Positions 5,617 to 17,627 of a DNA stretch of 64,000 nt are shown here, piece after piece. Position 1 is the stretch's first letter; each line of letters opens with the position of its first letter. The stretch is from Burkholderiales bacterium 70-64. Its GTDB lineage: Bacteria; Pseudomonadota; Gammaproteobacteria; Burkholderiales; Burkholderiaceae_E. The translations under genes and the position numbers were made by a program. The DNA is taken from assembly GCA_001898645.1 (NCBI GenBank), contig MKUQ01000044.1, positions 6,055-70,054 of the forward strand. The letters run 5' to 3'. The notes under the pieces are model-generated. The model was not told the DNA's origin. It made no database searches and worked only from the letters and a program-made list of their open reading frames with translations.

Positions 5617-7506
5617 ATGTCACCGGAATCACGGGACGCGGAGGCTTCGGGGCCGACGCGCTTTGCCGGCTACGCGAGCCCAGGGGTCGCGCTCGAGGCG
5701 CTGCGCGCGACGCTCGCACGCGCCGACGCGCTGTTTCCGCTGTCGGTGATGGGGCTGCTCGCGGGCATCGTCACCGGCGCCGTCATCGTCGCGTTCCGGC
5801 TGGTCACCGAGCACGCGCTCGTGCTCGCCGGACTGATGGACGACGCCGAGCACTTCGAGAAGCTGTCGCCCGAATGGCGCCTGGCATTGCCGATCGCCGG
5901 CGGGCTGGCGATCGGCGTGCTGTTCCGGCTGGCGCGCCCCGCGTCGCGTGCCGTCGGTCCCGCGCACGTCATGGCGCAACTCGCCCGGCACGCCGGCTGG
6001 CTGCCGTGGCGCAACGCGGCGATGCAGTTCGTCGGCGGCGCCGTATCGATCATCTGCGGCCATTCGGTCGGCCGTGAAGGCCCGGTCATCCACGTCGGCG
6101 CGGCGAGCGCGAGCCTCTTCGGGCAATGGCTGCGTCTGCCGAACAACAGTATCCGAACGCTGGTCGGATGCGGCGTCGCCGGCTCGATCGCCGCCTCGTT
6201 CAACACGCCGATCGCCGGCGTCGCGTTTGCGATGGAGGTCGTGCTGCTCGAATACACCCTCGCCGGCTTCGCGCCGGTCATCCTCGCGGCGATGTCCGCC
6301 GCCGCGGTGAGCCGCGTCGTCTATGGGCCGGACCCCGCGTTCGCGGTACCGCCCTTCCAGCTCGCCTCGCTGCTCGAGCTGCCCTACATCGTGCTGCTCG
6401 GGGCCGTCGTAGGCTGCCTGGCGGCAGCCTATGTATGGGGAACGAAGACGCTCGATGCGCGCTCCCGGCACCTGCCGCTGCCGCTGCGCACGACGGCGGC
6501 GGGCGCCTTCACCGGCCTGTGCGCGCTCGTGGCGCCCGAGGTGATGGGGCTCGGCTACGATACCGTCCAGTCGGCGCTGCTCGGCGAGATCGGTTTCGTC
6601 GCGCTCGCGACGATCGCGCTGCTCAAGCTGGCGGCGACCGTGGCCTGCGGCGGCTTGGGCCTGCCCGGCGGACTCATCGGACCGATGGTCGTGATGGGCG
6701 CGACGGCGGGCGGCGCACTCGGCATCATCGGCGGCTGGCTGGTGCCGCACGCCGGCGCTTCGCCCGCGTTCTACGCCACGCTCGGTGTCGTCGCGATGAT
6801 GGGCGCGAGCCTGCAGGCTCCGCTCGCCGCGTTGATGGCGATCCTCGAGCTCACCGCGAACGCCAATACGCTGCTGCCCGGCATGGCGGCCGTGATCCCC
6901 GCGCTGCTCGTCGTCCGCAGCCTTTTCGGCCAGGATCCGATCTTCGTCGCGATCCTGCGCGGGCGCGGAATGGAATACCGCTTCGACCCGGTCGCACTGT
7001 CGCTGGAGCGGACGGGCGTGAGCGCGGTGATGGACAAACGCTTCGCAGCAGTGGAGATCGAGGCACCCGCCGAAGCGCTGGCGCAGGTGCTCGCGACGCA
7101 GCCCGATTGGCTGCTGGTCACGCGCGAGCGCGCGATTCTGGGCATCGTTCGCGCCGCGCAGCTCCACGACGTTCCCGCGGGCGGCCCCGGCGGCACCGAT
7201 CACGGGCAAACCGGCGACGCGCACGGGGAGGCGCTCGCGGCCTCGCTCGAGCAGGCGCCGCGCTTCGTGCTCGTCTCGATCTATGCGAGCCTGCGTGAAA
7301 CGCTGCAACGCCTCGACGACGCCGGTGCCGAGGTCGCGCTCGCGTGCGACGGGACCGGCACGCGCGCGGATCAGGTGCGGGGAGTGCTCGAGCGCGCGTC
7401 GCTGGAGAAATCCGCGATGACGCGATGCGACGTCATGGCCGGCTTCTCCGCACATCGGGACCGGTCGACGGATGCGCCTGGCCGTCGGCATCCCCCGGAT
7501 CGGTGA
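5617..7506 (+). CDS. Voltage-gated ClC-type chloride channel/antiporter
   Basis: This 629-residue inner-membrane protein has the ClC signature GHSVGREGPVIHVGA (gating-glutamate loop), SIAASFNTPIAGVAFAMEV and a GGLGLPGGLIGP segment matching the GxFxP anion-site region, plus about ten hydrophobic helices up to residue ~440. The remaining ~190 residues are a cytoplasmic tail, possibly a degenerate CBS-type region. Start ATG 5617 follows a purine-rich AAGAAAGGGCGG. The last 74 bp overlap the 3' end of exbD on the other strand. Channel versus H+/Cl- antiporter cannot be decided here. Confidence 0.9.
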   Translation: MSPESRDAEASGPTRFAGYASPGVALEALRATLARADALFPLSVMGLLAGIVTGAVIVAFRLVTEHALVLAGLMDDAEHFEKLSPEWRLALPIAGGLAIGVLFRLARPASRAVGPAHVMAQLARHAGWLPWRNAAMQFVGGAVSIICGHSVGREGPVIHVGAASASLFGQWLRLPNNSIRTLVGCGVAGSIAASFNTPIAGVAFAMEVVLLEYTLAGFAPVILAAMSAAAVSRVVYGPDPAFAVPPFQLASLLELPYIVLLGAVVGCLAAAYVWGTKTLDARSRHLPLPLRTTAAGAFTGLCALVAPEVMGLGYDTVQSALLGEIGFVALATIALLKLAATVACGGLGLPGGLIGPMVVMGATAGGALGIIGGWLVPHAGASPAFYATLGVVAMMGASLQAPLAALMAILELTANANTLLPGMAAVIPALLVVRSLFGQDPIFVAILRGRGMEYRFDPVALSLERTGVSAVMDKRFAAVEIEAPAEALAQVLATQPDWLLVTRERAILGIVRAAQLHDVPAGGPGGTDHGQTGDAHGEALAASLEQAPRFVLVSIYASLRETLQRLDDAGAEVALACDGTGTRADQVRGVLERASLEKSAMTRCDVMAGFSAHRDRSTDAPGRRHPPDR

Positions 7507-7903
7507 CGAAACCGAGCTTCAGCACGCCCGCGCGCTGCGCGGCCGCCATCACCCGCAGCACGGACTCGTACTCGGCCTTGCGGTCGCCGCGGATGTGCAG
7601 CTCGGGTTGAGGGTCCTGCCGGGCCGCGGCTTCCAGCCGCGCCTGCAAGGCAGCCTCGTCCACCGGCTGGTCGTTCCAATGCACCCGGCCGCCGGCATCC
7701 ACCGCCAGCGTCACGCGCTCGGGCTTCACGTCGTCCGTCGCGGCAACCGCCCGCGGCAGGTCCACCTTCACGCGGTGCGCGAGCACCGGCATCGTGATCA
7801 TGAAGATGATCAGCAGCACCAGCATGACGTCGATCAGCGGCACCATGTTGATGTCGCTGACCTCGGTATCCTGGTCGTCGAAGTCGTGCAGCATCGCGGC
7901 CAT
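7433..7903 (-). CDS. exbD: ExbD-type energy-transducing protein
   Basis: This 156-residue protein has a single N-terminal transmembrane helix (about 22-42, preceded by DINMVPLIDVMLVLL, the conserved Asp-containing ExbD/TolR segment) and a periplasmic C-terminal domain. With ExbB it uses the proton motive force to energise TonB. Its ATG is 1 nt after the exbB stop, implying translational coupling. The tail is longer than the domain needs and overlaps the end of the convergent ClC gene by 74 bp. The context (TonB receptor, TonB, ExbB) favours ExbD over TolR. Confidence 0.93.
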   Translation of the reverse strand: MAAMLHDFDDQDTEVSDINMVPLIDVMLVLLIIFMITMPVLAHRVKVDLPRAVAATDDVKPERVTLAVDAGGRVHWNDQPVDEAALQARLEAAARQDPQPELHIRGDRKAEYESVLRVMAAAQRAGVLKLGFVTDPGDADGQAHPSTGPDVRRSRP

Positions 7904-7904
7904 G

Positions 7905-16974: not shown

Positions 16975-17562
16975 TCAGGCCTGGCCGGGATCGAGAAGAC
17001 CGGCCACCGTCTGCCGGGCCTGCAGCTGCATGCAGCGCAGCATGGCCTGGGCGACGTACTTGCGCACCATGCGCGAGGAAACGCCCAGCTCCTCGGCCAC
17101 TTCCCTGTCGGTCATCTGGCAGGCGGCGGCCATGAGGAAGGCCCGGGCCGCCTTGGGCGGCAGCTCGAGCAGCAGGGTGCCGATCTCCTGCAGGGCTTCG
17201 AGCACCATGGCCTGCCGCTCGGCGGAGGGCGCGAACGCCTCCGGCCGGGCGGCCAGCGTGTCGAGCCAGGCCTGCTCGATCTCGCGGCGGTGCCACAGGT
17301 TGATGCACATGCCCTGCGCCATGGCGCGCAGGTAGGCGCGCGCCTCGCCGAAGCTGTCGAAGCCGCGCGGGGCCGGCCTGAGGATGAGGCGCAGGAAAAC
17401 ATCGTGGGCCAGATCGGCCGCATCGGCGGCATTGCCCAGCCGCCGGGACAGCCAGACCCTCAGCCACGCATGGTGGTCGTCATAGAGGTGCTCGATGGCC
17501 CCTGCCGCATCGCTCGGGAAGCTCGCGATCGGGCCTTCCAGCCCTCCATGCGGCGGATTCAT
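16975..17562 (-). CDS. fecI: FecI-like ECF sigma factor for the downstream receptor cluster
   Basis: This 195-residue protein has sigma region 2 (about 20-85; YDDHHAWLRVWLSRRLGN, AADLAHDVFLRLI) and region 4 (about 135-185; QMTDREVAEELGVSSRMVRKYV), as in FecI/FpvI-type iron-starvation sigma factors. ATG 17562 lies just downstream of a Fur box, so production should be iron-repressed. It is first of a minus-strand run fecI-fecR-receptor-hemophilin-Slam-tonB-exbB-exbD. Confidence 0.92.
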   Translation of the reverse strand: MNPPHGGLEGPIASFPSDAAGAIEHLYDDHHAWLRVWLSRRLGNAADAADLAHDVFLRLILRPAPRGFDSFGEARAYLRAMAQGMCINLWHRREIEQAWLDTLAARPEAFAPSAERQAMVLEALQEIGTLLLELPPKAARAFLMAAACQMTDREVAEELGVSSRMVRKYVAQAMLRCMQLQARQTVAGLLDPGQA

Positions 17563-17567
17563 CGAAT

Positions 17568-17627
17568 GTAAATGAGAATGATTCTTGGTACGTTCCCCGA
17601 TTATAGCCAAGGGAGGCGATTTGACAA
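17568..17627 (-). promoter_or_regulatory. Sigma70-like promoter with Fur box for the fecI-led cluster
   Basis: Read on the minus strand, TTGTCA (17627-17622) and a perfect TATAAT (17605-17600) are separated by 16 bp. Downstream of the -10, positions 17586-17568 contain an AATGAGAATGATTCTT-type dyad matching the 19-bp Fur consensus at 13 of 19 positions. A bound Fur dimer would cover the transcription start region and the fecI leader. Confidence 0.75.

Follow-up and report, generated by a model that had tools for sequence, protein, structure and literature searches.

The window analysed here, a 64,000-nucleotide stretch on contig C44 of the Burkholderiales bacterium 70-64 genome (4.72 Mb, 98% complete), carries eight genes with open frames, all on the minus strand and running from 17562 to 7433, which encode in this order a FecI-type sigma factor, a FecR-type anti-sigma factor, a TonB-dependent receptor, a secreted protein (hereafter the cargo), a Slam translocator, TonB, ExbB and ExbD. 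Our analyses suggest that these genes probably form a self-signalling operon for the secretion of a scavenger and the uptake of its ligand, and that the scavenger, as judged from a structure model, has the hemophilin fold. The operon is a variant of a known design, as surface-signalling hemophilin clusters have already been described; heme is the likeliest ligand of the cargo, and is unproven.

The first gene (16975..17562, with its stop codon at 16975-16977) encodes a FecI-type extracytoplasmic function (ECF) sigma factor of 195 residues with sigma-70 regions 4 (PF08281, 1.8e-12) and 2 (PF04542, 1.7e-8), and is separated by 5 bases from the gene (15941..16969) of a FecR-type anti-sigma factor of 342 residues, which matches Pfam FecR (2e-22) and DUF4880 and scores 248.7 bits against NCBIfam NF007296, under the cut-off of 385. 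After a gap of 216 bases follows the receptor gene (12101..15724, a GTG start being assumed), whose 1207-residue product contains an STN domain (residues 105-149), a plug and a barrel and is related to HasR and HphR. FecI-type sigma factor, FecR and STN receptor together make up a surface-signalling gene set of the FecIRA type, in agreement with an earlier note on this DNA that had been made from the sequence. The cargo gene (11138..12031, 297 residues) lies 69 bases beyond the receptor gene and 92 bases ahead of slam (9558..11045, ATG at 11045), the 495-residue product of which combines the SlipAM barrel (8.6e-36) with an N-terminal TPR_Slam domain (6.9e-18), as found in the outer-membrane translocators of type 11 secretion. 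Only 3 bases further on begins tonB (8721..9554, 277 residues, TonB_C 1.5e-21), followed after 48 bases by exbB (7905..8672, a proton channel protein of 255 residues, MotA_ExbB 7.4e-33) and after 1 more base by exbD (7433..7903, 156 residues, ExbD 2.3e-33). The last two were named from their neighbours, because their best NCBIfam scores were obtained with the TolQ and TolR models, yet below the cut-offs. Coordinates, open frames and Pfam matches confirm the eight minus-strand genes and the identities that the earlier note had assigned to them.

The cargo passes the NCBIfam model for Slam-dependent proteins (NF041636, 94.6 bits against a cut-off of 80) and is encoded next to a Slam gene. It has no cysteine among its 297 residues and thus no lipobox, and a Sec-type signal was read by eye, which would leave residues 24-297 as the mature protein, consistent with the secreted, lipobox-free hemophilin-like protein that had been proposed. 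At the sequence level, solved hemophilins match no more than residues 114-296, and a profile built from 55 relatives (see below) brought no match to the initial third of the cargo. The AlphaFold2 model (predicted local distance difference test, 89.7; predicted template modelling (TM) score, 0.88) shows an N-terminal clamp and a C-terminal eight-stranded barrel, the overall fold of hemophilins, and the top eight Foldseek matches of this model are all hemophilin chains (7re4, 8gmm, 8glo, 7rea, 6om5 and 8gm3), with 290-309 alignment columns and target TM scores of 0.66-0.79, the best being 7re4_E (E 7.9e-14, target TM 0.79). In the predicted structure, therefore, the fold is that of a hemophilin. 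The relatives shade into the hemophilin family, since 22 of the 55 match the Pfam heme-binding domain HphA_N at E 0.1, and 54 of 55 match NF041636 at E 0.001. Pfam HphA_C does not match the window cargo, while the relative L017 passes its cut-off (34.5 against 31). For reasons given below, the protein is best called a hemophilin-fold cargo and not a hemophilin. PMC12282271 distinguishes two groups of hemophilin-like cargo, one mostly soluble and the other mostly lipidated, and refers to two papers of 2024 on the diversity of hemophilins (Shin; Grossman); for NGO0554, no tie to the present cargo clade could be established from its published primer.

The linkage of the cargo to its partners was examined in 55 loci obtained from a scan of a species-genome collection with patterns typical of this clade, the neighbours being searched up to 10 kb per side and less at contig ends. 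Slam adjoins the cargo in 53 of the 55 loci, the other two running off the contig, and a receptor is present in 52. Thus neither of the outcomes that the earlier note had named as refuting its reading, a cargo without structural match or homologues never found with Slam and receptor, occurred. The clade is spread over Pseudomonas, Comamonas, Alcaligenes, Thauera, Neisseria and others, and its loci from the same order as the window, including those of Vogesella, Neisseria and Allopusillimonas, bear out the betaproteobacterial host that had been suspected. The cargo was found in none of 60 related genomes and in 6 of 398 other genomes of the order, one of these being a weak partial match (G202) with no receptor or Slam match within 2.3 kb. 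On the cargo tree, the clade is separate with a value of 100 in the Shimodaira-Hasegawa-like approximate likelihood ratio test, which is partly a recruitment effect of the clade-typical search patterns; the tree is a quick one, in which several classical rows are long-branched and the position of the window within a 31-row group is not resolved. FecI and FecR occur together in seven loci (L019, L048, L055, L062, L063, L064 and L068) and FecI alone in L024. Among 54 receptor rows, an STN domain goes with FecI/FecR in the locus in 9 and both are missing in 40, while 4 have STN alone and 1 only a weak opposite-strand FecI-like match; the presence of FecI/FecR corresponds to six changes on the cargo tree. 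Several cassettes are duplicated: L046 has two receptor-cargo pairs, L053 tandem cargo genes, and L055 two FecI-FecR-receptor sets back to back.

The closest arrangement found is that of Billgrantia gudaonensis (L019), which has the five-gene module FecI-FecR-receptor-cargo-Slam in common with the window (identities of 76, 62, 51, 53 and 63%, respectively) and no TonB, ExbB or ExbD matches. Regulator and exporter are thus more conserved than receptor and cargo, the two proteins that contact the ligand. In this module, fecR is separated from the receptor gene by a HicA/HicB toxin-antitoxin pair (Pfam; L019:4806-5428).

The place of TonB, ExbB and ExbD in the system is less firmly drawn. They are assigned to the operon by adjacency, because ExbB and ExbD were found in none of the 55 related loci and TonB in the form of one weak opposite-strand match (L020, 16 bits), a distribution that speaks against their membership. 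The energiser is also not the private one that the earlier note had envisaged, as its TonB accounts for just one of the five TonB_C matches of this genome and further TonB-ExbB-ExbD sets lie on contigs C40 and C14. Moreover, ExbB and ExbD have 73-75% and 75% identity, respectively, to those of a TonB-ExbB-ExbD set from a different genus of this family (L132:8646-11001), around which no cargo or Slam match was found within a 13-kb stretch. These observations would be explained if TonB-ExbB-ExbD were a mere neighbour serving several receptors, the working system being the five-gene set of the Billgrantia type; on the other side stand the gap of 3 bases between slam and tonB, the TonB gene that follows Slam in A. 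baumannii and the ExbB-ExbD-TonB genes that follow it in two Vibrio loci. We consider this alternative, which is compatible with a self-signalling operon, a possible but not a favoured one. The sequences suggest that a five-gene module, probably acquired by horizontal transfer, was placed next to a TonB set of the family type. As to the other sets, that of L132 adjoins oxoprolinase-like genes (named by eye), and that on C14 (L118) is close to two of the six FecCD permease matches of the genome, with a third further along C14 and receptor-like genes recognised by eye.

The identity of the ligand is the point at which the operon departs most from its models. In HphA, heme is ligated by H43 and H106 (PMC8560813). 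Counted from the annotated start, their numbers are lower by one, and all four classical hemophilins aligned have both histidines. The cargo alignment comprised the window and 54 of 57 cargo rows (L038, for want of a good start, and L069 and L070, for their long repeats, were dropped), and its handle region aligns poorly, so that histidine placements there are uncertain. With this reservation, none of the 55 members, including the window, has a histidine at either HphA column. A histidine of an SNH-type loop (ST-H in one member) stands just ahead of the first site in 16 of the 55, and another, one residue before an FGG motif, stands at the second site in 11 different members; no member has a histidine near both sites, and 28 have none near either. 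These 16 and 11 members speak against a clade that lacks heme histidines altogether. That the two placements are mutually exclusive may point to a switch of heme ligand within the clade. P69, W109, R126 and Q127 are conserved throughout it.

Since the HphA pair is absent, any heme would have to be held in another way. Single-histidine ligation is described for the hemophilin of Haemophilus haemolyticus, and coordination varies among hemophilins (PMC8560813); by analogy, much of the cargo clade could ligate heme through a single histidine. As far as the sequences indicate, the window branch could not do so at the two HphA sites: the window cargo and its four best matches (L017-L020) belong to the 28 members without a histidine at or near either site, and the H56 that the window does have is found ten columns beyond the first. 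Tyr88, which is conserved in those four matches and is a tyrosine in 24 of the 55 members, is a candidate ligand. In the handle region (window residues 24-140), 12 of the 55 members have no histidine at all, including the three best matches (Vogesella, Pseudomonas huaxiensis L018 and Billgrantia), 26 have one and 17 have two or more.

Besides these missing histidines, several other results weigh against heme as the ligand. The cargo scores 12.9 bits against HphA_N, where the cut-off is 22 and four classical members reach 42-102 bits, and it matches the last third of the model only. The receptor stays under the NCBIfam TonB-hemin cut-off (225.7 against 316.85). No match to heme oxygenase, HemS or DUF2470 was found in this genome, heme-degrading families beyond these three not having been sought, and heme oxygenase was found in none of the 55 clade loci. 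Heme specificity is weaker than the earlier note had assumed. One could accordingly propose the same operon logic with a cargo that captures a non-heme ligand, such as another metal chelate or a cofactor, by means of an enlarged handle domain, and a cargo of a cobalt receptor, CrpC, is indeed listed among Slam cargo in a passage of PMC12282271. We regard this as unlikely, as the closest folds of the cargo are all hemophilins; the nearest solved relatives of the receptor are HasR (9e-35) and PhuR, and it can be aligned with HphR of A. baumannii; half of the clade has a histidine near one site; and, outside the clade, two cargo proteins from Neisseria each lack one of the pair, the first histidine in one and the second in the other. 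Heme oxygenase is, in addition, present in only 2 of 6 classical hemophilin loci examined and missing from the other 4. The receptor was also compared at two HasR positions that we take to be those of its heme histidines; it lacks them, and so does HphR, and this comparison was dropped as neutral.

A broader proposal, that the window branch, perhaps all 28 members without a nearby histidine, combines the hemophilin scaffold with a larger, histidine-poor handle and either a non-heme ligand or an undescribed heme ligation, in a complete operon of the has style, seems to us conceivable, if rather doubtful. The histidine pattern marks the clade as a set of hemophilin-fold proteins whose heme ligands seem to have been rearranged or lost, and for branches without heme histidines the name hemophilin, and hence heme, may mislead. 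That the cargo is instead a co-receptor docking a protein ligand on the receptor, like HpuA or TbpB, is very improbable: it has the TbpB-type barrel (Pfam TbpB_B_D, 24.8 bits, just below the cut-off of 26), and TbpB and HpuA follow among the weaker Foldseek matches, but the eight best are all hemophilins and a protein without cysteine has no lipid anchor.

A sigma-70-like promoter, TTGTCA-16-TATAAT, stands ahead of fecI (17600..17627, minus strand), matches in 11 of 12 bases and is the sole such site in the 11 kb from 7000 to 18300, where 0.8 would be expected by chance. Between it and fecI, a Fur-box-like site (17571..17589) agrees in 16 of 19 bases with AATGAGAATGATTCTCATT, a consensus picked after the site had been read, the best of 20 shuffles reaching 14; an overlapping site agrees in 13 of 19 with the classical consensus, which is inside the shuffle range. 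A Fur box ahead of fecI is thus plausible from the sequence, not proven. Within the operon, a terminator-like hairpin of 10 pairs with a T-rich tail lies between cargo and Slam (11069..11092, minus strand), in a 101-nucleotide stretch whose stability (z -2.91) was equalled in 2 of 200 shuffles. Hairpins occur at this place in 19 of 54 stretches (the window and 53 loci), mostly with differing sequences, where base shuffling predicts 1.5, and 4 of 51 stretches behind the receptor gene have one against 0.7 expected, the survey being a simple test on related loci that are not independent. Those of L017, L041, L046, L052 and L055 (Vogesella, Pseudothauera, a Rhodocyclaceae metagenome-assembled genome and Thauera) have the stem GGAGGCCGG...CCGGCCTCC in common. 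The hairpin after the cargo gene is perhaps a read-through attenuator, which would fit a high output of cargo and a low one of Slam. The gap between receptor and cargo (12032..12100, minus strand) contains a 9-bp stem-loop, for which a functional role was dropped, as it is no more stable than shuffles (z -0.17).

Gene content, cargo fold and linkage in relatives come from the present data, whereas the mode of action is modelled throughout on HphA/HphR/HsmA, Has and FecIRA; the self-signalling operon may work as follows. When iron is scarce, Fur would be released from the promoter of fecI, allowing FecI and FecR to be produced. The cargo would pass the inner membrane via Sec and the outer membrane via Slam, be released, capture an iron-bearing ligand outside the cell, in the likeliest case heme or a metalloporphyrin resembling it, and hand it to the receptor. 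The STN domain of the loaded receptor would signal to FecR and so free FecI, whereupon the genes for receptor, cargo, Slam and the TonB-ExbB-ExbD set would be transcribed more strongly. That set would power import, while the hairpin after the cargo gene may hold Slam and TonB below the level of the cargo.

Around the cassette, the window contains 97 open reading frames downstream and 51 upstream; ten chosen downstream ones include, by Pfam, RNase R, SpoU, Crp-like and Clp protease genes. Upstream of fecI, at a distance of about 2.4 kb and past a DUF937 gene (17684-18271), there is a ParD/ParE toxin-antitoxin pair (Pfam; 19969-20702). When 19 window genes were compared with seven stretches from members of the genus, a CLC gene was the sole match, the stretches extending in most cases some 15 kb downstream of CLC and covering little upstream.

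Compared with known systems, the operon has several close counterparts. The hemO cluster of A. baumannii (sigma factor, FecR, HphR, HphA, HsmA, TonB, HemO and YbaN; tabulated in PMC10483418) agrees with the window in gene types and their order from the sigma factor up to TonB, whereas the window adds ExbB and ExbD, lacks HemO and YbaN in the cluster, and encodes a cargo without the HphA histidines. Within the literature collection searched, no paper joining 'hemophilin' with 'FecR' was found, though the A. baumannii cluster is published under 'ECF-sigma factor'. On a plasmid of Pseudoalteromonas sp. KG3, all eight gene types (receptor, Slam-dependent protein, Slam, sigma factor, FecR, TonB, ExbD and ExbB) lie within 12.4 kb; unlike the window locus, that of KG3 spans two strands and has heme oxygenase and YbaN, and its cargo passes HphA_N with 101.9 bits. 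The suggestion of a fuller, undescribed version of hemophilin clusters is refuted by these two cases. Nor do the data support the view that hemophilin clusters are mainly a matter of Acinetobacter and Haemophilus, given the Vibrio and Stenotrophomonas structures and the 55 loci in many genera. The hrp locus of Xenorhabdus (TonB, HrpA, HrpB and HrpC) likewise has TonB, a heme receptor, Slam and a soluble cargo, and HrpB secretes HrpC in Escherichia coli, according to PMC8406197; in contrast to the present operon, the terms sigma and FecR are absent from the main text of that paper. Finally, the has operon of Serratia (hasI hasS hasR hasA hasD hasE hasB; gene order as given in PMC9249621) follows the same order of sigma factor, anti-sigma factor, sensor receptor, scavenger, exporter and TonB. 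Its scavenger and exporter are unrelated to those of the window, where neither a HasA-fold scavenger nor a HasDE type I exporter is present and a hemophilin-fold cargo and Slam take their places, so that the plan of the has operon, to sense, secrete, recapture and energise, appears here to be built from an unrelated scavenger and an unrelated exporter.

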